A stretch of DNA of 23,153 nucleotides from a virus, in IMG/VR virus record IMGVR_UViG_3300044647_000519, positions 1-23,153 of that record; one strand, 5' to 3'. Under the pieces are notes generated by a model, which saw nothing but the letters and a program-made list of their open reading frames with translations, did no database searches and was not told the DNA's origin. Shown piece by piece: positions 2 through 23,153 of this stretch. The first letter of the stretch is position 1; each line of letters begins with the position of its first letter. The position numbers and the translations under genes are program-made.

Positions 2-220
2 TATCAAAATGCTGGATCAACGGGTCCAGTGGACATTGTTGCAATTAAGAACGGAAAGGTTTGGTTGTTTGATATCAAGAGCAAGAACAGTGAACTGAAC
101 TGGGGTTTTAGTAGAACCTTTGCTCAGGAGATGCTTGGAGTACAGATCCTAGTGTTTAATCCTAGAACACGAAAGATGCGCTTTGTCAAGCACCGTAAGC
201 ACAACGAGGGTATTCTATGA
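2..220 (+). CDS. Holliday-junction-resolvase-like PD-(D/E)XK nuclease, 5'-truncated by window edge
   Basis: The frame is open from the first bases of the window, so only the C-terminal 72 residues are seen and the true start lies upstream; the GTG at 29 is internal. The visible part has the core of a small PD-(D/E)XK nuclease: GPVDIVAI (the metal-binding Asp), a beta-hairpin, then LFDIKSK (the D-x-K motif), as in archaeal Hjc-like resolvases and phage recombination nucleases. The likely role is cutting branched DNA during phage replication or packaging. The stop overlaps the ATG of the next gene by 4 nt (ATGA), so the two are probably translationally coupled. The family assignment rests on the motif pair only; another small restriction-like nuclease is possible. 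Confidence 0.6.
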   Translation, partial: YQNAGSTGPVDIVAIKNGKVWLFDIKSKNSELNWGFSRTFAQEMLGVQILVFNPRTRKMRFVKHRKHNEGIL

Positions 221-1086
221 TTCATACACTAGTAGATGATATTTACTCTTTGGTTCTCTCCAAGAGGGCACCGGAGGGGGTTGATGTTGAGAAAGAGATT
301 GACGCCTTTGGTGAGGCAGTCAAGGATCTCATGCGTAAGGAGTTCCTTAGCAAGAGCTTCGATTCTCGCAAGCTGAGGCTCTCAAATATTGGAAGAGACG
401 ACCGTTATTTATGGAATCACTACCATAGTAAAGCACGACAGAAGTACCGCCCAGAGAACCTCATCAAGTTCCTCTATGGTCACATCATCGAGGAGATGCT
501 GCTGTTCCTGGTTAAGATGTCCGGGCATAAGGTGACACATGAACAGCATCCCTGTGAGGTAGCTGAAGTCAAGGGGTCTATGGACTGTAAGATTGATGGG
601 ATTGTGACTGACATCAAGTCCACCAGCACCTACGGCTTCAAGAAGTTCAAGGATGGCTCACTGGCTTATGATGATCCCTTTGCCTATGTGGGACAGATCA
701 AAGCCTATGCTCACTCCGAGGGTGAGACAAAGTACGGGTGGCTTGCAATGGACAAGCAGAATGGACACCTGACCTATCTCATGTACGATGAGAAGGACAC
801 ACAGGCTCCAGTACATGAGAAGATTAGCTACTCCATCGAGGATCGAGTGAAGCACGTATGGCAGATGGTGAATAAGAATGAACCACCTGAGAAGCCCTGT
901 GCAGAGCCTGTGCCTGATGGCAAGAGTGGCAACATGGCATTGACGGCTACCTGCTCCTACTGTCACTTCAAGAAGGTCTGCTGGGAGGGTGTACGAGGGT
1001 TTGTGTACTCCACGGGTCCAAAGTTCTTCACCAAGGTAGTTAATGAACCCAAGGTTCCAGAGATCCCCTATGCCGAGATCCAGTAG
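217..1086 (+). CDS. RecB/Cas4-like PD-(D/E)XK exonuclease
   Basis: This 289-aa protein has the motif series of the RecB/lambda-exo/Cas4 branch of PD-(D/E)XK nucleases: a helical GHIIEE segment (from G88), D127 in KIDG, D132-I-K134 in VTDIKST, and the QIKAY motif (Q160, Y164) on the helix after the core. Near the C-terminus C246, C249 and C255 form a C-x2-C-x5-C cluster like the C-terminal Cys group of the Cas4/AddB Fe-S cluster; an upstream Cys such as C113 could supply a fourth ligand. The likely role is a DNA exonuclease for host DNA breakdown or recombination, doing the job of T7 gp6 although from another family. It starts in a 4-nt overlap with the previous nuclease and its end overlaps endonuclease I by 44 nt. 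Nuclease class is firm; exact polarity and Fe-S content are inferred. Confidence 0.8.
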   Translation: MIHTLVDDIYSLVLSKRAPEGVDVEKEIDAFGEAVKDLMRKEFLSKSFDSRKLRLSNIGRDDRYLWNHYHSKARQKYRPENLIKFLYGHIIEEMLLFLVKMSGHKVTHEQHPCEVAEVKGSMDCKIDGIVTDIKSTSTYGFKKFKDGSLAYDDPFAYVGQIKAYAHSEGETKYGWLAMDKQNGHLTYLMYDEKDTQAPVHEKISYSIEDRVKHVWQMVNKNEPPEKPCAEPVPDGKSGNMALTATCSYCHFKKVCWEGVRGFVYSTGPKFFTKVVNEPKVPEIPYAEIQ

Positions 1087-1483
1087 TAGATACCGAAGTG
1101 GTCTTGAGAGGGACTTTGCACAAGGGGTAACTGGATGGGAGTTCAAGTTTGAACCCTTCATGTTGCCCTATGTGATCCACAGGGAGTACAAACCTGACTT
1201 TGTACACTCGGACAGTGGGATCATTGTGGAGTGCAAGGGGTTCTTTAGGACGGGTGATACTCAAAAGTACAAAGCCATTAGGGACAGTATCAATAAGTAC
1301 AATGAATTGATATTTATTCTCTCTGACCCAAGGAAGAAAGTACGTAAAGGTTCTGACATTACTATGGGCAAGTGGTGTGAGAAGGAAGGGTTTAGATACT
1401 TTACACTATCACAACTAGATGAGTTCCTTGCTTATGTTGACAATGCTTCAAAGAAGAAGAGAAAGAAGTCGGCAAGACTGTAA
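1043..1483 (+). CDS. T7-type endonuclease I (Holliday junction resolvase)
   Basis: This 146-aa protein matches the phage T7 gp3 endonuclease I family in length and motif order. The catalytic set is visible as E22 (SGLERD), D52 (YKPDF), E63 and K65 (VECKG), followed by the SDPRKKVRKGSD and KWCEKEGF segments that parallel T7 gp3. These dimeric enzymes resolve four-way junctions and branched DNA and help degrade host DNA. I chose ATG 1043 because an AAGG lies about 8 nt upstream; the ATG at 1070 is an alternative that still keeps all active-site residues. The start lies 44 nt inside the upstream exonuclease gene. The basic C-terminal tail (KKKRKKSARL) may aid DNA binding. The identification is secure. 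Confidence 0.9.
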   Translation: MNPRFQRSPMPRSSSRYRSGLERDFAQGVTGWEFKFEPFMLPYVIHREYKPDFVHSDSGIIVECKGFFRTGDTQKYKAIRDSINKYNELIFILSDPRKKVRKGSDITMGKWCEKEGFRYFTLSQLDEFLAYVDNASKKKRKKSARL

Positions 1484-1499
1484 CTGGGAGACATTCTTT

Positions 1500-1754
1500 A
1501 TGAGAAACAGTATTGATGATGCTACCCCTGCTGAATGGGATGCCGTTGCAAAGCCAAAGCACTACAACCAAGGGTCCATTGAAGCCATAGAATACATTAG
1601 GCAACAATTGGGATCAGGTTTGTGTAACTATTATGAGGGTTCTGTGTTAAAATATATGCACAGGTATAAGTACAAGAATGGTCTTGAGGATCTTAAGAAG
1701 GCTAGCTGGTACTTGGAAAGACTCATTGAGGAGTACATTGTGCATGGAAAATAA
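1500..1754 (+). CDS. DUF3310 family phage protein
   Basis: This 84-aa protein has the DUF3310 signature: KPKHYN (residues 18-23), a GSIEAIEYI helix, then GSVLKYMHRYKYKNG and DLKKASWYLERLIEE. This small helical domain is common in the early and middle regions of phage genomes, often beside nucleotide-metabolism genes; its biochemical role is not established. The frame is open further upstream, but the ATG at 1500 has a GGGAGA ribosome-binding site about 8 nt upstream and begins just before the conserved region, so longer versions starting near 1419 are unlikely. It follows endonuclease I after 16 nt and overlaps the MazG-like gene by 11 nt, pointing to coupled translation. Confidence 0.85.
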   Translation: MRNSIDDATPAEWDAVAKPKHYNQGSIEAIEYIRQQLGSGLCNYYEGSVLKYMHRYKYKNGLEDLKKASWYLERLIEEYIVHGK

Positions 1755-2076
1755 AGAGGAAAAATATCTTGACTTTAATCTGTATCAGCGCCTTGCTTCT
1801 CGCACTGCGCTTTATGAAGACCGAATGTATCCCGTTTGTTCTCTCATGGTGGAAGCAGCGGAACTGGCTGACCTGTTCATCAAGCCCATTCTGAGGGGTG
1901 ATGCTGTTAGTGTGGACCGTGTAAAGGTCATTAGTGAAGCAGGGGATGTCCTTTGGAACCTTGCCATGATCTTGGATGATATGAACATTGACTTTGAGAA
2001 AGTAGCTAAAGCCAATGTAGAGAAACTTAAGAAGCGCTTGGAAGACGGGACCATTCAGGGTAGAGGTGATCGCTGA
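1744..2076 (+). CDS. MazG-like nucleoside triphosphate pyrophosphohydrolase
   Basis: This 110-aa protein carries the all-alpha NTP pyrophosphohydrolase metal motif: E37-A-A-E40 on one helix and E65-A-G-D68 on the next (EXXE...EXXD), followed by NVEKLKKRLEDG near the C-terminus, as in MazG domains. Such enzymes hydrolyse (d)NTPs to the monophosphate plus PPi. In phages they are thought to clean the nucleotide pool or alter host alarmone levels. It is a single-domain version, as is usual in phages. ATG 1744 is chosen because it begins 11 nt inside the DUF3310 gene and gives a normal family length; codons upstream in this frame encode an unrelated-looking stretch. The stop overlaps the next ATG by 1 nt (TGATG). 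Its position two genes before ribonucleotide reductase suits a nucleotide-pool role. Confidence 0.8.
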   Translation: MENKEEKYLDFNLYQRLASRTALYEDRMYPVCSLMVEAAELADLFIKPILRGDAVSVDRVKVISEAGDVLWNLAMILDDMNIDFEKVAKANVEKLKKRLEDGTIQGRGDR

Positions 2077-2333
2077 TGCAAGTCATTCAAGGTGGCTTTG
2101 GGAAGAAGGGAAAAGAAGAAGCTGAAAAGACCATTCAGGAGATCATTGATAAAATTGAGATCAAGGATAAGGTTCCTGATTCTTTTGTAGCCTTCATTGA
2201 GCATGAAGGGGAGCTACACACTATCTGTTACCCGATACTCAGCCCAATAGAGATCCTTGGTGCCCTTGAGGCACATAAGTTCAACATTCAGTTTGCAATG
2301 GCTATGGGGACACAGGAAGAGGAGGACCTTTGA
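2076..2333 (+). CDS. Small hypothetical phage protein between MazG and RNR
   Basis: This 85-aa protein is not recognised. It has a Lys/Glu-rich N-terminal helix (residues 10-32), then a central segment PDSFVAFIEHEGELH that reads as beta strands, a helix SPIEILGALEAHKF, and an acidic EEED tail. There is no signal peptide, membrane segment or Cys pair. It is joined to both neighbours by TGATG overlaps, so it is certainly translated with the MazG-like and reductase genes. A GGAGG within its 3' end (2321-2325) serves as the ribosome-binding site of the reductase. A role in nucleotide metabolism is only guilt by association. Confidence 0.7.
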   Translation: MQVIQGGFGKKGKEEAEKTIQEIIDKIEIKDKVPDSFVAFIEHEGELHTICYPILSPIEILGALEAHKFNIQFAMAMGTQEEEDL

Positions 2334-4222
2334 TGGATCTATACCAACAGTACATTCATAAATCCAGGTATGCTCGATACCTACCCAATCATAACCGAAG
2401 GGAGCACTGGGGAGAGACAGTCTTTCGATACACCAATTATTGGTTTAACAAAGGCTTGATTGATAAAGAGACAGAGGACTTGCTTTGGGCTTCCATCTTT
2501 GACATGCAAGTCATGCCCTCCATGCGGGCACTGATGACAGCAGGTGAAGCACTAGATCGAGACAACGTAGCAGGATTCAACTGTAGCTACATTGCCGTAG
2601 ACAGCCCCCGAGCCTTCGATGAGATGATGTACATTCTCATGTGTGGCACTGGGGTGGGCTTTAGTGTAGAAAGACAATACATTGCTAAGTTGCCTGAAGT
2701 AGCTGAAGACTTCTATGACACAGACACCATCATTCACGTATCGGATTCAAAGATCGGGTGGGCAAAAGCCTTCCGAGAACTCCTATCGTTGCTCTATTCA
2801 GGTCAAGTACCCAAGTGGGACGTTAGTCGAGTGCGTCCTGCTGGGGCACCTCTCCGGACTTTCGGAGGGAGGGCTTCAGGTCCAGAACCTCTTGTCAGCC
2901 TATTCCGGTTCTCAGTTGACCTCTTTAAGGGAGCTGCTGGAAGAAAACTTACAAGCCTGGAATGCCACGACCTCTGCTGCAAAATCGCTCAGATTGTTGT
3001 CGTTGGAGGAGTCCGTAGGTCAGCCCTGATTAGCCTGAGTAACCTGAGTGATGATCGCCTTCGGCGTGCAAAGCATGGTCAGTGGTGGGTAGACCAGCCC
3101 CAGCGTGGCTTGTCGAACAACAGTGCTTGCTATACGGAGAAGCCCGAGTTTGATCAGTTCCTGTCTGAATGGGCTGCACTGTATGAGTCCCGTAGTGGTG
3201 AACGAGGGATCTTCTCAAGGGTAGCTTCTCAGAAGCAGGCAGCCAGGAACGGTCGTAGGGACACTAACTTTGAGTTTGGTACAAACCCCTGCTCAGAGAT
3301 CATCCTACGTCCCAACCAGTTCTGCAACCTGAGTGAGGTTGTGGTTAGACCCAATGACACCTTGGATGATCTAAAGAACAAAGTACGTGTAGCTACAATC
3401 CTTGGAACCCTTCAGTCCACCTTGACGGACTTCCGTTACCTCCGGAATGCATGGGCTGTGAACACCAAGGAAGAATGTCTGCTGGGGGTGTCCCTTACAG
3501 GGATCATGGACCATTGGTTGTTGGGTAATCCCAATTCAAAGGATCTTGAAAAATGGCTTACTGCCATGAAGGAGACTGCAATTGAAACTAATAAAGAATG
3601 GGCTGCCAAGTTGGGCGTCAATCAAAGCACGGCTATTACTTGCGTTAAGCCTTCCGGTACTGTATCCCAGTTGGTTAATTCCGCCAGTGGTATTCATGGT
3701 CGTTATAGCCCTTATTACATTCGTCGGGTAAGAGCTGACTCCAGAGACCCCCTGTGTGCCACTCTGGAAGCCGCTGGGGTGCCTGTGGAGACTGATGTGA
3801 CCTCACCCACTACCAAGGTATTCACCTTCTACCAAAAGGCTCCAGAGGGCTCTGTGATGGCTTCCAAGCAGTCCGCTATGGATCAGTTGAAGCTGAACAG
3901 CCTGTACCAGAACTATTGGTGTGAACACAAAGTGTCACAGACGGTGTACTACAAGGACAGTGAGTTCTTGGAGGTAGGACAGTGGATCTACAACAACTTT
4001 GATGAAGTATCAGGGATTAGCTTCCTGCCCTTCTCAGAGCACACCTACCAACAGGCTCCCTATGAGGAGATCACTGAGGGGGCTTACTTGATTGGTATAG
4101 AGACAATGCCCAAAGAGATTGATTGGGACATCCAAGAGATGTCTGACAATACCGAAGGGGCACAAACTCTAGCCTGTGTGGGTAATGCCTGTGAGATAGA
4201 GTTTATCAAAGATCCACTTTAA
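2333..4222 (+). CDS. nrdJ: Class II adenosylcobalamin-dependent ribonucleotide reductase (monomeric RTPR type)
   Basis: This 629-aa protein reduces ribonucleotides to deoxyribonucleotides with adenosylcobalamin as radical source, without oxygen or a separate small subunit. It opens with SRYARYLPNHNRREHW as in Lactobacillus RTPR. The catalytic set is visible: redox Cys C84 (GFNCSYI) paired with C331 (NQFCNLSEV), and N318-P-C320-S-E322 holding the thiyl-radical Cys, Asn and Glu. CGTGVGFSVER (104-114) and CVKPSGTVSQL (437-447) are substrate-loop motifs, and the C-terminal C615/C620 pair relays reductant. At 629 aa it is shorter than the 739-aa Lactobacillus enzyme. ATG 2333 is preferred over TTG 2330 because GGAGG sits 7 nt upstream. 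It is the last gene of the plus-strand operon and is followed by hairpins. The host must supply cobalamin. Confidence 0.93.
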   Translation: MDLYQQYIHKSRYARYLPNHNRREHWGETVFRYTNYWFNKGLIDKETEDLLWASIFDMQVMPSMRALMTAGEALDRDNVAGFNCSYIAVDSPRAFDEMMYILMCGTGVGFSVERQYIAKLPEVAEDFYDTDTIIHVSDSKIGWAKAFRELLSLLYSGQVPKWDVSRVRPAGAPLRTFGGRASGPEPLVSLFRFSVDLFKGAAGRKLTSLECHDLCCKIAQIVVVGGVRRSALISLSNLSDDRLRRAKHGQWWVDQPQRGLSNNSACYTEKPEFDQFLSEWAALYESRSGERGIFSRVASQKQAARNGRRDTNFEFGTNPCSEIILRPNQFCNLSEVVVRPNDTLDDLKNKVRVATILGTLQSTLTDFRYLRNAWAVNTKEECLLGVSLTGIMDHWLLGNPNSKDLEKWLTAMKETAIETNKEWAAKLGVNQSTAITCVKPSGTVSQLVNSASGIHGRYSPYYIRRVRADSRDPLCATLEAAGVPVETDVTSPTTKVFTFYQKAPEGSVMASKQSAMDQLKLNSLYQNYWCEHKVSQTVYYKDSEFLEVGQWIYNNFDEVSGISFLPFSEHTYQQAPYEEITEGAYLIGIETMPKEIDWDIQEMSDNTEGAQTLACVGNACEIEFIKDPL

Positions 4223-4640: not shown

Positions 4641-4906
4641 TACCATTTCACCTTATCAGCCCAATAGGCTGCTGAACTTTTACCTTTTGCAATATTCTTT
4701 CCGTGTCGTGCCTTAAAACTCTTTCTCTTTTGTGTCATCTCCTTAGACTCACCCTTCTTAGGTTTGCCTGCTGTCTTTGCTCCTTGCTCACCAAATCGAA
4801 TGACCTTCTCCTTACCACCCTCACATGCTTTGACAACATGAGACTTCTTAGGGTGACCTGGGGTTCTCTTTGGTTGGTTACACTTGAGGTCTGATTTTTT
4901 GATCAC
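4640..4906 (-). CDS. 88-aa basic conserved-type phage protein
   Basis: This 88-aa Lys-rich protein contains KSHVVKACEGGKEKVIRFG, GEQGAKTAGKPKKGESK, and a C-terminal block with SFKARHGKNIAKGKSSAAYW and WADKVKW. I recall closely related sequences in many unrelated tailed phages, sometimes beside the MPGLY protein, with no assigned function. The pattern of beta strands followed by a basic R-x-R-H helix suggests nucleic-acid contact, but this is inference. It starts with GTG at 4906, overlapping the stop of the 805-aa gene by 4 nt (GTGA), with GGAGG about 10 nt upstream. It ends TAATG onto the next small gene. A plus-strand frame across the same bases is a shadow. Confidence 0.75.
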   Translation of the reverse strand: MIKKSDLKCNQPKRTPGHPKKSHVVKACEGGKEKVIRFGEQGAKTAGKPKKGESKEMTQKRKSFKARHGKNIAKGKSSAAYWADKVKW

Positions 4907-7320
4907 TGATACAACGCCTCCGTTAGCATCCCAGCGGAAACCACAGGAAGATTCTTAGTTAAAACCTTGTTTACCAATTGACCTCCACTGCTCTGCATAG
5001 CACGTTGTGCAGCCATTTGAGGGGCCGTTTGACCAGCAGCAAATCGTTGCATAGTGGGTGATGCTGCTCCACGAAGGGCTCCAGCAGCAGCTACAGTAGA
5101 ACCAAGGGCAGCAAGAGGGGCTGCAAAAGCGCCTGCTCCAGCAACACCACTAGCAAGACCCGGCAGTATATTCCTTAGAAGATTAAAAGTAGTCGTTTCC
5201 TGTTGCCAAGAAGGCATGTCGGATATCTTAAGACTCTTGTATTCATCCAAAGAACTGTTAATGAACTGCAACTTTTGCTGCGCAGCAGTTACAGCGGTCT
5301 GTGCTTCAGCAGCCTTTTGTGCGTACTCTGGAAGATGGGGCATTAGCTTTTTAGCTTTCTCTAGTTCAGCTTTTTTTGCATTGAGCAAGGCTTCAGTTGC
5401 TCTTTTCTCTGCATCAACCTTATCCTTAATAATCTTAGCTCTGTTTGCAAAAGAAGATCTCATGTAAGCAGTGATTGTTCTTTCATTTTCATTCAATGAC
5501 TTTAGAGCTTTTTCTGCTTCTGGGACCAAAGGACCAGTACCATACCTTTTGTTTGTTTTGCCCAAAGTCTCAACGGACTTAAGATAGTCATTAACAGACC
5601 ATCTTCCTTGTACACCAGGCTTTAGACCTGTGTTTTCTGCTGAGTTTCTTATTGCAAGAAGAGTCTTCCACTTTTGCTTTTCTTTTTGGAAGTTGACAAG
5701 GGTTTGCTTTGGTACGTTATTCTCAAGGATGTCCAACAAAACATTTTGAACAGCGTAAAAACCTCTTTTGACATTAGGGTCAGAAGCCATTGCTGCGTTT
5801 CTACCAAGTTGGGCATAAGCAGCACCTAGTTTGGTAGGATCAATAAATTTATCCTCTTTTAGTTTTACTCTTTTGCCCACAATCCTTGCAGGAGCAGTGT
5901 AGAAAAAACCTTCGTTGATTTTTGTAAGCGCAGATTTAAAAGAGGCGTTCCTAGATGCTTGCAAAAGACCTTCATCAGCACTAAGGCTTGCCTGCATATC
6001 TTTCAAGACTTGCTTCCTTTCAAGGGCAGTTCCAGCAGGAATCTCATCAAAGAAAGGCTTAAATCCCTTCTCTCTCCATTGGAAGTCTAGATCAGCCATT
6101 GCGTCCCTTGGGTCTGATACAAGTTTTTGTTCAATAGCCTTTAGTGCAGTCTTGTCCCCATAGAAAGGAAAAGCCTCAAAGAAAGCAAGTTTTCTAAAAT
6201 TGTGTTCCAAGACATCATTAGAAGTTTTTACTATGTCTGCGGTCCTTGTTGCAAACTCACTACTTGGTCCAGTGCCCATAAGCGCTTTGTACTGGTCTTC
6301 AGATAGACCTACCTTTGTTTTGCCGATGTCAGTCACATTTTCGATGTCAGCCTTTAGGGCGCTGACTGCTTGGTCTCGTGCTTCTTTAGAAGCTGCATCA
6401 CTCTCAGCAAGAATTTGTTTCTGAGCAGCTACCAATTGTTCTGATTCTGTTTTTGCTTTTTCTGCTGCTTCTTGGATAGGGGACACAAACTTTTTTTGCT
6501 GCTCCCTTAGAACAGAACCAGAGAAAGGAGCATTCCCTAGAATATTCCTATAGAACTTTTGTACACCACCAGTAAACCCTTCTTCTTGTGGTGCAAGAAA
6601 GATTGGAGTAAATGAACCATCAGGCTTCAAAAGATCTGTCTGGATGTTTCTCTTTGACATAAAATCAATAACTTTTCCTAGCCCAGAAGTGACGCCCATG
6701 ACACCCAAGGTTGTGCCTGCTCCAAGGGCTGCGCCTCCTAGTCTTTCCTCTAGAGTTACATCTTCCCCAGTAATTCCTGCTGCTCCAGAAACACCACCAA
6801 GACCTACAGTAGTCCCTACTTTAGCAGAAGCACCACCAGGAATAGGGGCAAGCAAACCACCTGCAAGCTCTGCCCCCAACATTGCCCCGCCTATTTCTTC
6901 TTCAGCGGCTGCTTGCTGTTCATCGTAATCTTTTCTCATCTTACGATAAATAGTGGAGTAGTCCTCAGTAACACCAGGGGTTGCTTTTGCAGCAGCAGCA
7001 GCAGCAGCAAGACCAATATAAGGGCTTAGTTCAAAAGTAAAACCCTCCAACATAGACCTAGCAATTGCACGCGCATTGTCAAGAGTCCACTTAGTGTCAC
7101 TAAGGCTTTCTATTGTTCTTTCTTGCTCTACATCCCTTTGTGGTGCTTTGGGTATTTGATCTAAAGCAGCTAGAGCTTCATTTGCTGCACGAACGGCATC
7201 CTCGTCTGCTGGTGTTTCCGTTGAGGAAAACATTATTTGAGAGTCAGTAAGTGGGCTCGTTCCTTCTTCTTTTTCTTTTTCTTTGTAGTTAATGAAACTC
7301 ATCAAGTCTTCATTGCTCAT
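4903..7320 (-). CDS. Large putative internal virion (DNA-ejection) protein, 805 aa
   Basis: The protein is not recognised by name, but composition and position suit an internal virion protein. It has an acidic N-terminus (1-75), an Ala7 run (105-111), an Ala/Gly-rich membrane-compatible stretch (143-215), long charged helical segments likely to form coiled coils (about 280-335 and 620-695), and a second Ala/Gly-rich hydrophobic stretch (about 718-754). No lysozyme or transglycosylase motif is evident, unlike T7 gp16. It is last of three large minus-strand genes after the tail tube genes, the place where T7-like phages encode gp14-gp16, which build the channel carrying DNA through the cell envelope. 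ATG 7320 lies 7 nt after the previous stop with AAGG about 11 nt upstream. Ejection function is inference from order and composition. Confidence 0.65.
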   Translation of the reverse strand: MSNEDLMSFINYKEKEKEEGTSPLTDSQIMFSSTETPADEDAVRAANEALAALDQIPKAPQRDVEQERTIESLSDTKWTLDNARAIARSMLEGFTFELSPYIGLAAAAAAAKATPGVTEDYSTIYRKMRKDYDEQQAAAEEEIGGAMLGAELAGGLLAPIPGGASAKVGTTVGLGGVSGAAGITGEDVTLEERLGGAALGAGTTLGVMGVTSGLGKVIDFMSKRNIQTDLLKPDGSFTPIFLAPQEEGFTGGVQKFYRNILGNAPFSGSVLREQQKKFVSPIQEAAEKAKTESEQLVAAQKQILAESDAASKEARDQAVSALKADIENVTDIGKTKVGLSEDQYKALMGTGPSSEFATRTADIVKTSNDVLEHNFRKLAFFEAFPFYGDKTALKAIEQKLVSDPRDAMADLDFQWREKGFKPFFDEIPAGTALERKQVLKDMQASLSADEGLLQASRNASFKSALTKINEGFFYTAPARIVGKRVKLKEDKFIDPTKLGAAYAQLGRNAAMASDPNVKRGFYAVQNVLLDILENNVPKQTLVNFQKEKQKWKTLLAIRNSAENTGLKPGVQGRWSVNDYLKSVETLGKTNKRYGTGPLVPEAEKALKSLNENERTITAYMRSSFANRAKIIKDKVDAEKRATEALLNAKKAELEKAKKLMPHLPEYAQKAAEAQTAVTAAQQKLQFINSSLDEYKSLKISDMPSWQQETTTFNLLRNILPGLASGVAGAGAFAAPLAALGSTVAAAGALRGAASPTMQRFAAGQTAPQMAAQRAMQSSGGQLVNKVLTKNLPVVSAGMLTEALYQ
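6989..7009. repeat. (GCA)7 trinucleotide microsatellite
   Basis: Seven uninterrupted GCA units within the 805-aa gene encode, on the minus strand, the Ala7 run at residues 105-111. Gain or loss of units would keep the frame. Confidence 0.85.
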
Positions 7321-7327
7321 AGCTTAT

Positions 7328-8704
7328 TTACCTTTTAGTCTTAAATCTTGTTTCAAAGCTATTTACTCTTTCCGAGTACGTCTTGAAATCCGCCCCGGCT
7401 GCCTCTGCTTGCGCAATAATGGAAGCAAATTCAGGTTTCTCTTGCTTGATTTTATTAATTGCCGCTGCTTTATTAGCAGGACTCAAGTCAGGGTTAGAGA
7501 AAATTGTCTGATCAAGAATCCTGTATTCTTGTGTCTTTTTCAATTCAGCGATTCTTTGCTCACTTCTTTTGAGCATAACTGTATCGTTAAAACCAGCAAT
7601 TGTTCCATAATTAGAAATGTGACTTGCTTTATCTTGATTGTATCTTGCCCTTGCTTCTTCAAGTTCAATCTTTCTCTTCAAAAAGAATTCAAGCTCTGTA
7701 TCACTAAGGGAAGCAGGGTCTTTTGCTTGTTGTTCTGCCCATTGAAGTTCAAAGTTTGAAATAGCTCCTGGTCTTGGCAAATAGGCTTGCAAGGCTTCAT
7801 CTTTGAACATAGAGGTAACGTCCTGATAAGCCGTAGCAAGCTCATCTCGACTACCAAAAAGACCTAACACATTTGATCTTAGTTCTACTAATGGTCTCCC
7901 TCTTACATTACCCCTATTGCTTAAAATATCCAGACCTCTTTTAGCCATTCCTGCCTGAACGGTTGCTTTGGAAGCATTTGTTAGACTTTCATCAATTATT
8001 CTTGTTTCGGTAGCGTTGATATCTGGAGGAAGATCCGCTGGCGCTACTTTTTCTTTTTCTTCTTCTGGTTCTGCTGTTTTAGTAAACTCAACACGCCCAT
8101 CAGGGTATATAGTAGTATAACCACCAACAACACTTGTTACTTTAGGCATATTGGCTTTTTCAGCAGTTTCTCCGGAAGCTGTGAATACAACCCTTCCATC
8201 AGGATACGTAGTCGTATAACCACCAGGAACACTATTGACTTTAGGAACACTAGTTTTTGCCTGTGCTTCATAAGACGCTTGTATAAACTTCTGCACGGAT
8301 TCCATAGGGGCAGACTTAAGAGCATCAGCAAGCTCAGGTCTGCCCATAGACCTTGCTATTTTCTGAGCAGCAAGGCGCGCATTGATCAATTCTGACTCTT
8401 GCTCAAGAACATTAGCCACTTGCCTCTTTTGTTCTCGCTCAGCAGTGCGTTGTTGCTGACCAATACTAAAGGCTGAAAGAGCTTGTTGTCTTTCTTCAGG
8501 GGTTCTAGCTTGTTCAATAATCCGCTGAAAAGCGTTCATATCAGGAGCCCCAAGAGCCTGAGACATCAAATTTGTTTGTCTCTCATCTCTAGCCCTCTGT
8601 GCTCTAGCCCCACCCATAAGCATCCCAAGGGGTTCTTGGAGGGTTTGTAGATTAAAATTTGGCTGAAGAAGACCTTGGATTAAAGTGTCACTAATTGATG
8701 CCAT
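7328..8704 (-). CDS. Putative internal virion protein with a duplicated YPDGRV module, 458 aa
   Basis: This 458-aa protein has a mostly helical Gln/Arg/Glu-rich N-terminal part (1-150), two copies of a PKVxSVxGGYTTxYPDGRV module (154-179 and 187-212) followed by a Glu/Lys linker, and a long helical C-terminal region (225-458). The module reads as a short beta-hairpin unit. No enzyme motif is seen. Its place between two other Gly/Ala/Gln-rich proteins, downstream of the tail genes, suggests a virion-internal or ejection protein. ATG 8704 has AAGGAG about 9 nt upstream; that site includes part of the stop of the preceding gene. The stop is 7 nt from the next ATG. I cannot exclude a tail accessory role. 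Confidence 0.6.
   Translation of the reverse strand: MASISDTLIQGLLQPNFNLQTLQEPLGMLMGGARAQRARDERQTNLMSQALGAPDMNAFQRIIEQARTPEERQQALSAFSIGQQQRTAEREQKRQVANVLEQESELINARLAAQKIARSMGRPELADALKSAPMESVQKFIQASYEAQAKTSVPKVNSVPGGYTTTYPDGRVVFTASGETAEKANMPKVTSVVGGYTTIYPDGRVEFTKTAEPEEEKEKVAPADLPPDINATETRIIDESLTNASKATVQAGMAKRGLDILSNRGNVRGRPLVELRSNVLGLFGSRDELATAYQDVTSMFKDEALQAYLPRPGAISNFELQWAEQQAKDPASLSDTELEFFLKRKIELEEARARYNQDKASHISNYGTIAGFNDTVMLKRSEQRIAELKKTQEYRILDQTIFSNPDLSPANKAAAINKIKQEKPEFASIIAQAEAAGADFKTYSERVNSFETRFKTKR
8069..8245 (-). repeat. Tandem protein module duplication (YPDGRV repeat)
   Basis: Residues 154-179 and 187-212 of the 458-aa protein are two copies, offset by 33 residues, sharing PKV, SV, GGYTT, YPDGRV and FT. 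Codons differ at many third positions, so the duplication is not recent or is under diversifying drift. Confidence 0.75.
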
Positions 8705-8715
8705 TATTTATCTCC

Positions 8716-9663
8716 TTAAGTACCAGAACCTGATGTCATTCTGCCGCCACTTTGGTCAAAAAGACCACCAAGCCATCCAAATAAACCTTCAAAAGCCGAC
8801 CCAAGAGCACTTGAGCCTGTTTCGGCAGCCTCACTATTCATGCTGTTCAATGCCCCTGTAGCAAGTGCTGAACCAAACTGACCAGCAAGGTTACCTTGTG
8901 CAAGACGGCTTGCCAGCAAGGCATTAACACCACCCATAGATGCTTCACCAAAGAGTTCTGCTCCAATCCGCTGAAGCTCGGAAGACAATTGAGATCCTGC
9001 AAGACCTGGCTCATAAGCACTCAACATGGCATTCAATGGGAGATAACCACTAGTCATAAACAGCTTACCAAGCTCAGCAGCCTGCGCTTGTTCCTTCTGG
9101 GCTTGCTCAATAGAGTAAAGAGCTGCCTGATTCTTTGCTTCTTCTTGTGCTTTAGCAAGAGCAAGTTGCTCAGGCGTTCCACCGTACTGTGCTGTGCTAA
9201 CACCAAGACGCCCCTGTCCCATAAGACGTTCCTCAAGGGCTAGGCGTTGTCTCTCTTCCTCTGGGGTCTGTGTTGCCCTGAGTCTGTTGTAGACATCCTG
9301 TATTCGAGCATCCATAGGTTGAGTTGCTTGATTAAAGAAGCCGCCAGCACCGCCAAAGAGTTGTCTTTGAAGAGCTTCCTGCTCAGGGCTAAGATTCATT
9401 GTATAGCCACCTTCAGGTGTAGCAGCCATATTTCCAAGGTTTGTTGTGACTGTAAAAGGTCTAAAGCGGGTTTGATCAATAGCCGTTGAAGCTAGTGCAT
9501 TTGATCTGTTCAAAGCACTTTCACCAACATCACCAATGTTTTGATATGCTTCATTAACCAAAGCAGCACCACCAGCAAGACCTGCGCCTTGCCCTATGGC
9601 ACCTAGATTATCACTAATCCCTCCAAAAAGACCGCCCCAGATATCAGACAAAGAAAGAGCCAT
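8716..9663 (-). CDS. Putative internal virion protein, 315 aa
   Basis: The 315-aa product opens with MALSLSDIWGGLFGG and a Gly/Ala-rich hydrophobic segment (9-40). It has NLSPEQEALQRQLFGGAGGF, a helical Gln/Ala/Glu-rich middle (about 130-200), then LNAMLSAYEPGL and a Gly/Ala/Leu-rich segment (about 235-300) with GGLFDQSGGR near the end. The amphipathic Gly/Ala-rich ends resemble phage ejection proteins of the size of T7 gp14 (196 aa) or P22 gp7. It is the first of three such genes after the nozzle gene, matching the 14-15-16 order of T7. ATG 9663 has GGAG about 10 nt upstream. Function is inferred from composition and order; no homologue is named with confidence. Confidence 0.6.
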   Translation of the reverse strand: MALSLSDIWGGLFGGISDNLGAIGQGAGLAGGAALVNEAYQNIGDVGESALNRSNALASTAIDQTRFRPFTVTTNLGNMAATPEGGYTMNLSPEQEALQRQLFGGAGGFFNQATQPMDARIQDVYNRLRATQTPEEERQRLALEERLMGQGRLGVSTAQYGGTPEQLALAKAQEEAKNQAALYSIEQAQKEQAQAAELGKLFMTSGYLPLNAMLSAYEPGLAGSQLSSELQRIGAELFGEASMGGVNALLASRLAQGNLAGQFGSALATGALNSMNSEAAETGSSALGSAFEGLFGWLGGLFDQSGGRMTSGSGT

Positions 9664-9680: not shown

Positions 9681-11198
9681 TTAATAAGTTTTGCCAATCA
9701 AGGTAAAGATGTTGAATTCCTGCAAGGATATTTGGTCAGTTACAGGAACTTCCAAACCAACAACAACATTCGTTCCACTACCGTTTGTATTAATATTGGG
9801 AACAATGTACTGAGAACCACCAGAATACTCTGCTACGTTAAATTGAGCATTGCCGTAAAAAGGAAAGGAACCAAAGTTCTCCAAATTAACAGAATACGAC
9901 TTGAATGAGTCATTAAAACCATATCCCCATTTGAACGTGAGTGTTGTTGAGTTACCTCCAATGATAGTTGGCTTCATCTTTTTGAGAAACTTAATCTTAG
10001 AAGAATCCCCAAAGGTCAAGTGAGGACTGTAGTACTTCATAATATAAGTTGCTGTGCCGTCCAAGTAGCCTGAGTAGGAGGCTATACCGGAGGAAGTACC
10101 AATGTATAAAGTGCCATCAATAAGCCTTTCAAAACATTTTAGCTTACTAGTGGGCCATCGAGTTACTCTAAAAGAACCATTCTCAAGAGTACCTTTGACA
10201 TCAAAGCAGAAGATAGTGCTACTTGTAGGGAAGTACACCAAATAAAAATAGTTCTCAGGGCTGTACACAGATGTAATCTGCCCTGTTTCACTTCTTATAA
10301 GGTTAATTATATCAGTTTTTATGTTTCTGGACAAATCATTTAATGGAAGTGCTTTTTCTTGAATAGACCTGCTAAACGATCTTAGACCAGAGTAACTCAT
10401 AAAGAGAACATCAGTTCCTGTGTACTGGACTGAATCCCTTGCAACACAACCTACACCAGCTACAGTATCATAAAGTTCCATAGTAGCAGGAGCTTCAGCC
10501 CCTGTGTACGAGACAATACTGTGCTTACCAAAAATAATCAAAAGGTTGTTATGTGCAGCCAAGGCTACAACTTCATCATAACCATCAGGCCATACTTTAG
10601 TAATATCAATAGATCCACTAGTACCACCAGACCACTTCTGACCATTAAGCAAGTCAGACCAATAGATCGTAGTCTTATTGGAACTTGTATCAGCTACCCA
10701 TAGACGACCATAAGCTGCAAGCACCTCATGTGCATAGGGCACAGTGGCTGAGTAGGAAGGATGACTGGACATCTTGGTAACAGCACCGAGGGTGTTGCTG
10801 TACACCAAAGGCTCATAACCCCTTTGGAAGAAGTAGCAATGATCGTTAAAGTTTACAATCTTCCAAGCATTCGAGGTGATGGTGTAAGACCCAGGGGTTA
10901 CATCCGTCAGTGTAGTCGTTCCCCTGAAAATCTTGTTGTTTCCTGCTGAAAAGATTGCAAGGTTTCCTGCTGCGTCTCTAAACTGTTTAACTGCCTGAAT
11001 ATAACTGGTTCCCAAAGGGCTTGCTGAGGTAGTGATAACTGAATATCCCTTCCTTGCAGAGATCCTCCCGTACTTATCAATTACACAGTTGTCTGCATAA
11101 GTGGCAAAGGAGGGGTCCATAGAAAGAACAGAGTCCTCTGTATTAAGACCCCTAAACCCAGGCTCTACGAGATTTAATACTTGTAGTGGTTGTGACAT
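9681..11198 (-). CDS. Tail nozzle / packaged-DNA stabilisation-type protein (TtpB or P22 gp10-like)
   Basis: This 505-aa protein starts with VEPGFRGLNTEDSVLSMDP and DNCVIDKYGRISARKGY, the opening typical of podovirus proteins that close the tail below the adaptor ring. Blade-like repeats follow (IFSAGNNKIFRG, VNFNDHCYFFQRG, VLAAYGRLWVAD, VVALAAHNNLLIIFGKHSI, DVLFMSYSGLRSFSR), consistent with a beta-propeller. In P22 the equivalent gp10 forms a hexamer under gp4; in T7 the nozzle is gp12. Length (505 aa) is nearer gp10 (472) than T7 gp12 (794). It directly follows the adaptor gene with no spacer (TAA then ATG), the usual order. The tail-nozzle role is well supported by order and motifs; the exact family is less certain. 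Confidence 0.75.
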   Translation of the reverse strand: MSQPLQVLNLVEPGFRGLNTEDSVLSMDPSFATYADNCVIDKYGRISARKGYSVITTSASPLGTSYIQAVKQFRDAAGNLAIFSAGNNKIFRGTTTLTDVTPGSYTITSNAWKIVNFNDHCYFFQRGYEPLVYSNTLGAVTKMSSHPSYSATVPYAHEVLAAYGRLWVADTSSNKTTIYWSDLLNGQKWSGGTSGSIDITKVWPDGYDEVVALAAHNNLLIIFGKHSIVSYTGAEAPATMELYDTVAGVGCVARDSVQYTGTDVLFMSYSGLRSFSRSIQEKALPLNDLSRNIKTDIINLIRSETGQITSVYSPENYFYLVYFPTSSTIFCFDVKGTLENGSFRVTRWPTSKLKCFERLIDGTLYIGTSSGIASYSGYLDGTATYIMKYYSPHLTFGDSSKIKFLKKMKPTIIGGNSTTLTFKWGYGFNDSFKSYSVNLENFGSFPFYGNAQFNVAEYSGGSQYIVPNINTNGSGTNVVVGLEVPVTDQISLQEFNIFTLIGKTY

Positions 11199-11849
11199 TT
11201 AGACTACTCTGAAAATTGTTTCTTCAGGATGGTAGGCAGCATCCAATGCAATAGCTTCAGCAAGATATTTATTTGAGATGGCAAGGTATTCTGCTGTTCC
11301 TGTGCCTCCGGTCTCTCCTCGCTCTCTAGAAGCAAAAGCAACAGCAAGGTGCATCACAGGAGCCCAAGGCACCTTTATGACATCCGTTGATAGTGCCAAG
11401 GGTGCTTGACGAACAACACCATAGAACTTCAGGGTGTAAGCTGCGGCAGGCGTAGGGTACAGAACAATCTTCATATCCCCATTGGAGTCTGCATTGGTGT
11501 AACTAAAGTACGTTGGGGTCCCTTGAAGAGGGGTATCAGCAATATTGTTCTGTATATCAATCCAGTCCTTAGCTTGATACTCAATAGTAGTCCCATTTGT
11601 GTTATCAAGAAACTTAAGATACTTGAAGTCACTACCAAAGCCAGTCAAGGTGTATTCATTGACACCTGCCGTTGTGGTGATAGTTACAGTGGTTCTAAGG
11701 GCAGTCCAGTCCCAAGAATGCTCTACGGAGGTCTTAGCGTCATTTACGAGATCACCAATCAAGGCTGCATAGGGGCTTTGATTGATCGTTGTAATCTCAT
11801 CTTCTCTAATCCTACGGAGAACATTATTTACCAAAGTGAGATAGTTCAT
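11199..11849 (-). CDS. Tail tubular protein A-like head-tail adaptor (gp11-like)
   Basis: This 216-aa protein resembles T7 gp11/P22 gp4-type adaptors in length and pattern. It has an N-terminal helix (LTLVNNVLRRIRE), a second helix ending VEHSWDWTALRTTVT, then beta-rich strands (EYTLTGFGSDFKYLKFL, MKIVLYPTPAAAYTLKFYG) and a C-terminal helical hairpin. The W-x-W-x-x-L segment after the second helix is characteristic of this adaptor group. Twelve copies would bind below the portal and receive the nozzle. It overlaps the upstream 814-aa gene by 4 nt (ATGA) and abuts the nozzle gene downstream. High confidence in the role. Confidence 0.85.
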   Translation of the reverse strand: MNYLTLVNNVLRRIREDEITTINQSPYAALIGDLVNDAKTSVEHSWDWTALRTTVTITTTAGVNEYTLTGFGSDFKYLKFLDNTNGTTIEYQAKDWIDIQNNIADTPLQGTPTYFSYTNADSNGDMKIVLYPTPAAAYTLKFYGVVRQAPLALSTDVIKVPWAPVMHLAVAFASRERGETGGTGTAEYLAISNKYLAEAIALDAAYHPEETIFRVV

Positions 11850-14290
11850 GCTATACCTCTAGTTTTATAAAACTCTTGCAAAAGAACAGACAAAGGGTCT
11901 CTTGAAACAATCTTTGACAACCCTTGGATTCTTGGGTCGTAAGAGACTGTAGCCATGTAAGGGTTGTACTCGGGGCTGGCTGCGTTTTGTCGTGGTCTTT
12001 GCTGTGACATAAGTCCTGTACCAAGTAAACCTGAAAATAGACTATTAATGTCAAACGATGGCATACTTAGGTTTCTTATGGACTCTTCTACAGCTTCATT
12101 AATGTCAACTAAATCTTTATCAAGAACATCCTGTACAGCACCTTCTACATTCTCATAAGCAGTTTGTACCGGTTCTTCTATAGCCTCATAAGCGTTCTGA
12201 ACAACACCTTCTGCATTTTGATAAGCGTCTTGTACTGCACCTTCTACATTCTCATAAGCATTTTGAACAGGTTCTTCTACAGCCTCATATACATCCTGTA
12301 CAGTACCTTCTACATTCTCATAAGCATTTTGAACAGGTTCTTCTACAGCCTCATAAGCAGTCTGAACAGCGCCCTCGGCATTTTGATAAGCGTCTTGTAC
12401 AGTACCCTCTACATTCTCATAAGCAGTCTGTACAGCTCCTTCAGTATTCTGATAAGCGTCCTGTACAGCACCCTCTACATTTTCGTAAAGAGCTTGTAGT
12501 TCATCAGGAATTAAGCCCCCTGTGTTTTGTAAAGCATCAGCCAATGCTTCATAAACATCTTGTGCAGTTCCTTCTACGTTTTGATATACGTCCTGTACTG
12601 CTCCCTCTGCATTCTGATAAACATTTTGAACGGCTCCTTCTACATTCTCATAAGCATTTTGCAGCCAGTTTGGTACGTTAATGTTGGCACCGTTAATGTT
12701 CAAAGAAGGGGTGTTTAAGTCTCCTAAGATATCAAGCAACGAAGATGTATTAAGACCACCGACATTTGAAAGAACATCGGATACTTGAACATTCTCTAAA
12801 AAGTTTTGAACACCGCCAGGAAGCGAACTAAGAAGACCTGATTCAGCCAATGTACCAAGGTCCATGTCTCCAAAAAGATCACCTACAGCAGACCATTGAT
12901 CATCTCCAATATTAAGACCAAACTTAAGTGCATCAGCCAAACTAAGGTTTTCTAGTCCAGTAGCTAATGTATTAGCACCAATATCAAGCCCAAGGGTCTC
13001 CCCTAGAGTTCCACTCAGGAGACCACCAGGGGCACCTGCGTAGCCAAGGACACCTGCAATCAGTGCGTCCTCTAGGTCTCCTCCTCTTGCCAAAGAAAGA
13101 CCAGCCCTTGCTAAACCTTGACCTGCTGCTGTCTCCATAAAAGAAGATATTGTAGACCCTATGCCAGTAGACCCAGCAGCACCCCCAGCGGCTCCAGTAG
13201 CCCCGGATGCAGCTCCTGAAGCACCTCCTGCCACATTACCAAGGTAAGAACTTCCTCCTGCCATAGCAGCGGCAGTAAGTGCGTCACCCCAATCAGCACC
13301 TGAAGCTCTTGTAGTGAGACCTGAAGCAAGAGCAGCCCCAATAGGGCCGCCTACTGCACTACCTATGGCTGTTGCCACAGCCCCAACAAGAGGATTAGAC
13401 ATTGCTTGTTGAAACTCACTGGGATCGTTTTCAGGGTTCCAATAGCCACCAATGGAAGGACCGTATTGCTGAAGGTCTGAATACGGGTTATCCGAATACT
13501 TCTTCCTTTTGGTGCCGTAGGAGAAGTGTGCTTCAAAGTCCTCAAAACCAACCTTCTTGGGAAGATTGAACTGAGAACGAATGTCATTAATCTTGTTTGT
13601 AAAGGCTTCTTGTGTGTATCTATCATTTCGATAGTCCAACCAAGCAAGCTCAGTCTGTTCGTCAGCGGACAGATATTTTCTAAAATCCTCGTTGTCAGTG
13701 TAATACTCATACCAAGTCTTGATGTCATCAGCTACTTGAGCGCCTTCCCCTGAAGGTCTGTAGGGGAGATACATGTCACCAATTTGTTCAGGTCTGTTGG
13801 TGGCTACATAACCAGGTGCTTGGTTAAGTTGAAGCATCTCACTGTAGCCAACACGGGTTCTATCGGGAGTTGCCAAAGGTGACTCATAGGTTCTACCACC
13901 AAAGATGTCCGTAGCTCCTACAAGACTTACATCAGGATTAAAAACATAAGCAGCAGTGTAAGGATTGGTGATTGTACTGGAAGTAGCACCAGGAACACCC
14001 ATCATTCCTGAAGCACCTGCAATAGCATTTAGGTCAAGATTTGAAAGGATGTTTGCAGCCTGAGCAGCAGAGATAGTTCCTGTTGTAGAGGCTCCAGAAA
14101 CCCCTGTAGAGGCTGTTGAGCCTGTAGTGGCTGTAGAGGTACTAGTATTGGTAGAAACAGGCTGAGAAGCCGCTGTAGAGGCTACAGAAGCATTTGTAGC
14201 TGCTGGTGAGGTCATCATACCACCAGCGTTAGCAGCAAGTGCGTTTAAAGCAGCTAGATTAAGGTTAGGTATAAGAATATTACCGTACAT
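11846..14290 (-). CDS. Putative virion protein with sixteen 11-residue amphipathic repeats, 814 aa
   Basis: No named homologue is recognised. In order the protein has a Ser/Thr/Ala low-complexity N-terminus (about 25-100), a folded-looking acidic/aromatic region (about 165-285; YLPYRPSGEGAQVADDIKTW), and a Gly/Ala-rich hydrophobic stretch (about 300-385; GSAVGGPIGAALASG) that could contact membrane. Residues 545-720 are sixteen contiguous 11-residue units of consensus x-A-Y-E-N-V-E-G-A-V-Q, followed by a short C-terminal tail. Such 11-mers form long helices with three turns per repeat, as in LEA and alpha-synuclein-type proteins. The gene lies between the holin and the tail adaptor; its start overlaps the holin by 11 nt and its stop overlaps the adaptor by 4 nt. 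A virion, probably ejection or tail-associated, role is inferred. Confidence 0.6.
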   Translation of the reverse strand: MYGNILIPNLNLAALNALAANAGGMMTSPAATNASVASTAASQPVSTNTSTSTATTGSTASTGVSGASTTGTISAAQAANILSNLDLNAIAGASGMMGVPGATSSTITNPYTAAYVFNPDVSLVGATDIFGGRTYESPLATPDRTRVGYSEMLQLNQAPGYVATNRPEQIGDMYLPYRPSGEGAQVADDIKTWYEYYTDNEDFRKYLSADEQTELAWLDYRNDRYTQEAFTNKINDIRSQFNLPKKVGFEDFEAHFSYGTKRKKYSDNPYSDLQQYGPSIGGYWNPENDPSEFQQAMSNPLVGAVATAIGSAVGGPIGAALASGLTTRASGADWGDALTAAAMAGGSSYLGNVAGGASGAASGATGAAGGAAGSTGIGSTISSFMETAAGQGLARAGLSLARGGDLEDALIAGVLGYAGAPGGLLSGTLGETLGLDIGANTLATGLENLSLADALKFGLNIGDDQWSAVGDLFGDMDLGTLAESGLLSSLPGGVQNFLENVQVSDVLSNVGGLNTSSLLDILGDLNTPSLNINGANINVPNWLQNAYENVEGAVQNVYQNAEGAVQDVYQNVEGTAQDVYEALADALQNTGGLIPDELQALYENVEGAVQDAYQNTEGAVQTAYENVEGTVQDAYQNAEGAVQTAYEAVEEPVQNAYENVEGTVQDVYEAVEEPVQNAYENVEGAVQDAYQNAEGVVQNAYEAIEEPVQTAYENVEGAVQDVLDKDLVDINEAVEESIRNLSMPSFDINSLFSGLLGTGLMSQQRPRQNAASPEYNPYMATVSYDPRIQGLSKIVSRDPLSVLLQEFYKTRGIA
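12131..12658 (-). repeat. Array of sixteen 33-bp (11-residue) repeats
   Basis: Exactly 528 bp encode 16 units of 11 residues with no register break. Unit types are xAYENVEGAVQ, xAYQNAEGAVQ and xAYEAVEEPVQ, plus one degenerate unit (NTGGLIPDELQ) that still keeps the length. Codons vary between units, so the period is held at the protein level. The three types alternate partly in pairs, suggesting past duplication of 66-bp blocks. Confidence 0.9.
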
Positions 14291-14687
14291 CTTCTTTGTT
14301 ACTCAATACCGATTTAGTTATTTTCTCTGCGGATCTACCCACTACATAACCACCAAGACCCAACTGAAGCAGAGACCATGCTTCATCCCTAAGTGGGCTG
14401 GAGAGAAGCCCAAGGCTGTCTCCAACACACAAAGCAAGGAATGTGAGCATGGTCACTGGTCTCCAAATAGCCGTGAGCCAATGTTCCGACTTAGCCTCTG
14501 CTTCAATGATCTTTGCCCTAGACTCAAAGGAGTCCTTCTCGTACTGAAGCACTTGGTCAATGACTGCTGCTTGAGTAACCAAGAGTCTTTCTTTGTGTTG
14601 TAGCTTTTCCTCTTGACTAGTGTGTACATTGTCAATGAGTTCTACAGCGGGCTTAAAGATGGACTGAATGAGGTTAAGTAATTGCAT
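14280..14687 (-). CDS. Holin of the 3TM / GTA-holin type
   Basis: This 135-aa protein has a helical N-terminal half (HTSQEEKLQHKERLLVTQA ... SFESRAKIIEAEAKSEHWL) and then the conserved WLTAIWRPVTMLTFLALCV membrane segment. A second hydrophobic stretch follows (GLLSSPLRD), and the ending LLQLGLGGYVVGRSAEK is the mark of the holin family first described in gene transfer agents. It would form inner-membrane lesions timing lysis. No endolysin gene is seen in the window, so that enzyme must lie elsewhere. ATG 14687 sits 2 nt after the preceding stop with AAAGAG upstream. The identification is good. Confidence 0.82.
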   Translation of the reverse strand: MQLLNLIQSIFKPAVELIDNVHTSQEEKLQHKERLLVTQAAVIDQVLQYEKDSFESRAKIIEAEAKSEHWLTAIWRPVTMLTFLALCVGDSLGLLSSPLRDEAWSLLQLGLGGYVVGRSAEKITKSVLSNKEDVR

Positions 14688-22577: not shown

Positions 22578-23153
22578 TTAATACCCATACCACTTGTTGC
22601 TGTTTTGGTAGAAGGTTATTGCTGACAGTGAAGTGATGCTTGCACTGGCTGCATAGTTAATTGGCTTTCTCTGCAAAAGGCTAGGTGTGCTGATTACAGA
22701 GACACTTTGGAGATCATTAGCCAGAAGGGCGGAAGTCCCTAAAGAGACTACTGTAGGCGTAGAGACCGTAGAAACACTTTGTAGATTGTCTGCTAGAAGA
22801 GCGTTGCTTTGGCTAATGCTTGGTGTAGATAATGAAGAAACACTTTGTAGATTATCTGCAAGCAGAACATGGACTTGCCCTACAGTAGGTGTAGATAATG
22901 AAGAAGTGCTTTGTAGATCATCAGCCAAAAGCACATGAGTCTGACCCAAGGTGGGTGTAGAGACACTGGAGGTGCTCTGGAGGTTGTCTGCAAGAAGATT
23001 ATCAACATTAGAAAAAGCAGCTAAGCTCGGTGTGGATACCGAGGAAGTGCTCTGGAGATTGTCTGCTAAAAGACCATGAACCTGCCCCAAAGAAGGCGTA
23101 GAGAGTTGTGAAAGGCTCTGTAGGTCATTAGCAGTTAAGGCATCAGTACCTCC
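22578..23153 (-). CDS. 22-residue-repeat structural protein, 5' end beyond window
   Basis: The frame is open to the right edge of the window; a TTG at 23090 is internal to the repeats and not the start. The visible 191 residues are seven copies of a unit with consensus LLADNLQSxSxxSTPxxxQ, mostly 22 residues long with two of 24-25, followed by NYAASASITSLSAITFYQNS and an aromatic end (KWYGY). The regular Leu/Ser/Thr pattern suits a beta-solenoid or fibrous fold. It precedes the head-assembly genes, so a head-tail fibre, portal-associated or decoration role is possible. A plus-strand frame over the repeats is a shadow. I do not recognise the family with certainty. Confidence 0.7.
   Translation of the reverse strand, partial: GGTDALTANDLQSLSQLSTPSLGQVHGLLADNLQSTSSVSTPSLAAFSNVDNLLADNLQSTSSVSTPTLGQTHVLLADDLQSTSSLSTPTVGQVHVLLADNLQSVSSLSTPSISQSNALLADNLQSVSTVSTPTVVSLGTSALLANDLQSVSVISTPSLLQRKPINYAASASITSLSAITFYQNSNKWYGY
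22630..23153 (-). repeat. Tandem 66-75-bp repeats encoding LLADNLQS units
   Basis: Seven units occur in the window and more may lie beyond the edge. TTGTCTGC, STP-coding and LQS-coding blocks recur at the DNA level with moderate divergence. Most units are 66 bp and two are longer by 2-3 codons. Confidence 0.85.

Follow-up and report, generated by a model that had tools for sequence, protein, structure and literature searches.

Sixteen contiguous 11-residue units in an 814-residue protein of an uncultured short-tailed phage occupy a slot that, among relatives, grows or shrinks in whole units or is exchanged for unrelated repeats. We read this array as a length-adjustable and exchangeable helical spacer, running from a Gly/Ala-rich core to a C-terminal motif in what is probably a virion protein, possibly one with a role in genome delivery, and we give this reading about an even chance of being correct. 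The window, by which we mean the whole stretch of viral DNA analysed, is 23,153 nucleotides long, and the features identified in it are collected in Table 1.

Table 1. Features of the window, with positions counted from its first nucleotide.
Feature	Position	Strand	Remarks
Divergent early module	217-4222	+	Cas4-type exonuclease, endonuclease, MazG-like pyrophosphatase, ribonucleotide reductase
Three genes (315, 458 and 805 aa)	4903..9663	-	Putative counterparts, by order and sizes, of the podovirus ejection-protein trio
458-aa protein	7328-8704	-	Duplicated 33-residue segment (VPKVNSVPGGYTTTYPDGRVVFT)
Nozzle / packaged-DNA-stabilisation-type tail protein	9681..11198	-	
Tail adaptor	11199..11849	-	SU10_adaptor 2e-17; overlaps end of 814-aa gene
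814-aa protein with array	11846..14290	-	Undescribed family; core at about residues 120-530, C-terminal DPLS[IV]LL
C-terminal tail with DPLS[IV]LL, residues 747-814	11849..12052	-	Candidate docking segment; invariant D798, P799, L800, L803, L804
DKDLVDI-type segment after array, residues 721-746	12053..12130	-	Single motif copy; amplified in same slot of L014, L016 and L018
Array, sixteen hendecad units, residues 545-720	12131..12658	-	
Unit 5, NTGGLIPDELQ	12494..12526	-	Atypical but in register; two predicted helices are separated here
Gly/Ala-rich, mildly hydrophobic part of core, residues 301-430	13001..13390	-	19-residue hydropathy maximum 1.54 at 301-319
Holin	14280..14687	-	phrog_3427 4e-34; PF11351; overlaps start of 814-aa gene
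Tail fibre, 1384 aa	15503-19657	-	25- and 33-residue repeats (NVTGTLPxANGGTG)
Open ORF	22578-23153	-	Tandem repeats of 22 residues (LLADNLQS.S..STP); probable terminal part of a fibre-like protein

Units, register and helical periodicity of the array

The array covers 528 bases, and its identity with itself is 52% at a lag of 11 residues, 56% at 22 and 53% at 33, with values of 0-20% at the remaining lags. Tyr is found at unit position 3 in 15 of the 16 units, Gln at position 11 in every unit and Asn at position 5 in 11 of them. The repeat was also picked up independently by TRF, with periods of 33 bp (10.8 copies) and 99 bp (3.3 copies). Matching is weak in unit 5 and in half of unit 4, and the register is kept in both, so that the preliminary description of sixteen units of exactly 11 residues, never out of register even in a degenerate unit, proved exact. 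Unit 5 resembles a QNTGGMF motif that recurs along the N-terminal linkers of relatives, those of L014, L017 and L022 being very long and rich in Pro, Ala and Val. There are 36 Asp or Glu residues in the array and no Lys or Arg, giving a net charge of -36, or about -7 per 33 residues.

The same gene is present, identical, in the contig IMGVR_UViG_3300036406_000229 and in near-identical copies in four further contigs, and the array is therefore not an assembly artefact. Recent slippage was also considered as an origin and is ruled out by the high synonymous divergence between units (pS 0.59, with pN 0.19 and a pN/pS of 0.32). These values point to old units on which purifying selection acts.

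Taken over the whole array, the hydrophobic moment is highest at 98.0-98.5 degrees per residue, corresponding to 11/3, where it reaches 0.40. The maximum reached by shuffled sequences was 0.15, and 0.5% of the permutations of unit columns equalled the value of the array. The hydrophobic positions V10, A2, Y3 and V6 correspond to hendecad positions a, d, e and h and make up a continuous hydrophobic face. An 11-mer helix with three turns per repeat and an amphipathic face, as had been proposed earlier, is thus supported by the periodicity.

AlphaFold2 applied to the full protein predicted helices at residues 541-589 and 595-738 (pLDDT at most about 77 within the array and 42 averaged over the protein, pTM 0.25); applied to the segment alone it predicted three helices, interrupted at units 5 and 11 (pLDDT about 60, pTM 0.49). 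A helix is the best reading of the array from these models of modest confidence, and at that level a rod, a bundle and partial disorder look alike. The long rod that had also been suggested is possible, and a straight one would be kinked by Pro, which is present in three array units and in relatives often alternates with Gly. A Foldseek comparison of the array model with the PDB gave no match at E < 0.001, the best being ClyA and designed three-helix bundles, and a comparison of the full low-confidence model with BFVD was uninformative.

An undescribed family with an exchangeable slot

Scans of IMG/VR recovered about 42 loci of the family, which is undescribed. The core had no match in cultured phages even at an E-value of 1, and no member was found in the bacterial genomes searched. 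The family is also absent from HMO-2011-type phages and from Microcystis phage Mae-Yong1326-1, with which a distant relative of the nozzle protein is the sole item shared. A DNA-pattern search of other phages for the YENVEGAVQ-type repeat returned members of the same family only. Within the family, the core and the C-terminal motif are conserved, and the Pro/Ala-rich N-terminal linker and the slot holding the array are hypervariable.

The order of genes, which runs fibre, holin, 814-aa gene, adaptor, nozzle and then the genes for 315, 458 and 805 aa, is kept as far as the contigs reach; the exception is the GTGT subgroup, where the core is found in a different phage context. Downstream of the 814-aa gene, all genes with matches are structural. 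In a 38-kb relative (G001), TerL and portal genes were found, and none of the genes scanned there matched a tail-tube gene. The neighbours and their conserved order place the gene in a late structural operon, which upholds this part of the preliminary description as a late virion gene; the location of the protein in the virion is probable, judged from those same neighbours. In comparison with L062, the core is 54% identical and the adaptor and nozzle are 86% and 85% identical; the 814-aa gene as a whole diverges faster than its neighbours.

Five loci (L020, L023, L024, L026 and L035) have the same core, carry an extended repeat of the dipeptide Gly-Thr towards the C-terminus, lack DPLSILL and lie in another neighbourhood, which suggests that the core moves between phage types.

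We compared 16 slots of the family, from proteins as little as about 44% identical, and the moment peaks of all of them fall at 97-98 degrees. Within a clade, slot lengths are spaced in multiples of 11 residues (59, 81 and 103 residues in one, and 41, 52, 74 and 96 in another). Where it is helical, the slot holds 3-16 hendecads, the array of the window being the longest seen; elsewhere it is filled with DKDLVDIPE-type 30-mers or LPNVN-type repeats, and in the GTGT subgroup the C-terminal part is a GTGT repeat. The relatives L016 and L067 have 98.5% DNA identity over 781 bp before the slot and 99.7% over 3201 bp after it, with unrelated repeats in between, and the same was found for L014 and L017 (96.7% and 98.1% flanking identity). 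On the core tree, two cassette types need three changes each, on well-supported branches. The breakpoints around the exchanged cassette of the first pair (L016 1550-1880 versus L067 781-1066) are sharp, making it a clean natural example of recombination.

Since relatives have the slot in shorter or longer form or filled with unrelated repeats, it is better seen as an exchangeable spacer than as a membrane coat. Each 11-residue unit would make three helical turns, so that Val, Ala and Tyr would line up in an unbroken stripe, and the helix may pack on itself or on other copies, as a hendecad coiled coil or a helical bundle. In this way the spacer would hold the Gly/Ala-rich core domain apart from the C-terminal motif, which probably docks on a partner. 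The number of repeats shifts in whole units, and the entire cassette can be swapped by recombination. This would make the protein, which is unstudied, an example of a podovirus protein with a fast-evolving spacer slot, growing by whole units or exchanged for unrelated repeats within nearly identical flanking DNA. If the protein is ejected, the natural length variants would test directly whether the length of the spacer matches the host envelope.

Alternative readings

Perhaps the slot is a mostly disordered linker driven by composition, the 11-mers being one solution among others and the helix marginal. That LPNVN-type, DKDLVD-type and perhaps GTGT repeats can take the place of the 11-mers would agree with this, as would the low AlphaFold2 confidence and the presence of the hypervariable Pro/Ala-rich N-terminal linker in the same protein. 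However, a linker of this kind does not account for the strong 11/3 amphipathicity in diverged relatives, the unit-sized length steps or the constraint between units given by their pN/pS, and we consider it rather unlikely.

The hendecad helices might otherwise form an alpha-helical tube carrying DNA across the periplasm, with the number of hendecads setting its length; 16 units come to about 26 nm of helix. The model for this is protein H of phiX174, whose tube has hendecads and an inner face rich in amides (PMC7354561). The array is likewise part of a phage protein, its hendecads are probably helical with amide-rich polar positions (Gln 11 and Asn 5), and a Gly/Ala-rich hydrophobic segment lies upstream of it. 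Set against the amide and guanidinium lumen of an H-type tube, Gln and Asn are abundant in the array but Arg is absent and Glu and Asp dominate, so that the polar face is strongly acidic. There are also 16 units where H has 3 hendecads plus heptads, relatives have 3-4 hendecads or none, Pro occurs within units, the ejection trio is already fitted by three other genes, and the H protein was not matched by sequence in a PDB search. Such a tube is therefore, in our judgement, unlikely.

A trimeric rod of a tail needle or fibre-like appendage would suit a gene that adjoins the adaptor and a spacer of variable length, podovirus needles being coiled-coil trimers (PMC9509320), but it is improbable, as fibre and needle profiles do not match the protein, the large Gly/Ala-rich core is unlike a needle, and the gene stands before the adaptor and not after the nozzle. 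Equally doubtful is that the protein stays out of the virion and acts late inside the cell, in lysis or assembly for instance, being translated together with the holin. The start of the gene does overlap the holin, and no homologue of known virion location was found; however, its end overlaps the tail adaptor, the downstream genes with matches are all structural and the order with the tail genes is conserved.

A tempting reading for 11-mers is that of the preliminary description, in which an amphipathic helix like those of alpha-synuclein, perilipin or LEA proteins binds membrane and, once ejected, forms a coat or lining of the host envelope; apolipoproteins can be added to these models. This reading has to be corrected. 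Lipid binding was scored with the HeliQuest discriminant D = 0.944 × muH + 0.33 × z, for which the threshold is 0.68. The best window of the array scores -0.21 and the mean is -0.85. The helices of other relatives are less acidic and some are borderline (D up to 0.74), so that lipid contact stays possible in the family as a whole. Pfam gave weak matches to ApoLp-III (6e-6), apolipoprotein (3e-4) and perilipin (1e-3), all below the curated gathering scores (26.9 versus 36.3, 20.8 versus 90 and 18.6 versus 33 bits, respectively). The array has in common with perilipin, alpha-synuclein and apolipoprotein 11-mers its gapless tandem repeats of 11/3 amphipathicity, and the Pro-punctuated 11- and 22-mers of relatives recall apolipoproteins, but it has no basic residues, a large net negative charge and a large Tyr in nearly every unit. 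A change in net charge from +1 to -1 per 33 residues is enough to make the helix of perilipin 4 cytosolic (PMC5889406). Given this charge effect, and a slot chemistry so little conserved that near-identical phages carry unrelated repeats in place of the cassette, coating of a membrane by the window array is unlikely, and we rejected it as an explanation.

Comparison with ejection and tape-measure proteins

The 814-aa gene resembles those of the podovirus ejection proteins (T7 gp14/15/16; P22 gp7/20/16; PMC8954989) in being late and in the tail module, and its product in having a Gly/Ala-rich hydrophobic segment and fast, mosaic evolution. Unlike them, it comes before the adaptor, with the separate 315/458/805-aa trio after the nozzle, and its product has no sequence match to known ejection-protein families. 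The trio appears, in order and size, to correspond to the P22 and T7 ejection proteins (PMC8954989), which would make the 814-aa protein an additional component. The ejection proteins of SU10 are of five types (PMC9509320), and an additional ejected protein is therefore possible.

The siphophage tape-measure proteins are built of 11-residue units with aromatic markers, gained and lost in unit-sized steps (PMC3271669). In the tape measure of TP901-1, changing a whole unit to alanines had no effect, and removing 1.5 units left no visible plaques (PMC5099701). The array has the same tandem, probably helical 11-mers, an aromatic marker (Tyr), gain and loss by the unit and a hydrophobic region in the same protein. 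It differs in belonging to a short-tailed phage with adaptor and nozzle and no detected tail-tube genes, and in that whole cassettes of the slot are swapped for unrelated repeats. Several PHROG tape-measure profiles are matched by the array on its own, the best at 2e-7. One full shuffle gave no match, one column permutation matched none of the array's profiles, and the reversed array matched some tape-measure profiles more weakly, from which we conclude that the matches mostly reflect amphipathic periodicity. Nearly all PHROG matches centre on the array and none is a full-length tape-measure match for the protein; homology to tape-measure proteins was accordingly rejected in favour of shared periodicity. 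Separately, another phage, record G002, encodes near its nozzle gene a 973-aa protein (L083 4042-6960, minus strand) with 11- and 18-residue helical periodicity (GLSAEQLAAQT...) that recalls the 11-11-18 pattern of tape-measure proteins.

A podoviral counterpart of the tape measure can be imagined, in which ejected copies would build a helical rod or tube across the envelope, its length given by the number of 11-residue units and tuned to the host envelope by gain and loss of units and exchange of cassettes; we assign this only a small probability. As an exchangeable spacer, the array would find its closest analogues in the siphophage tape measures and in the hendecads of the phiX174 H-tube, by resemblance rather than by membership of either group.
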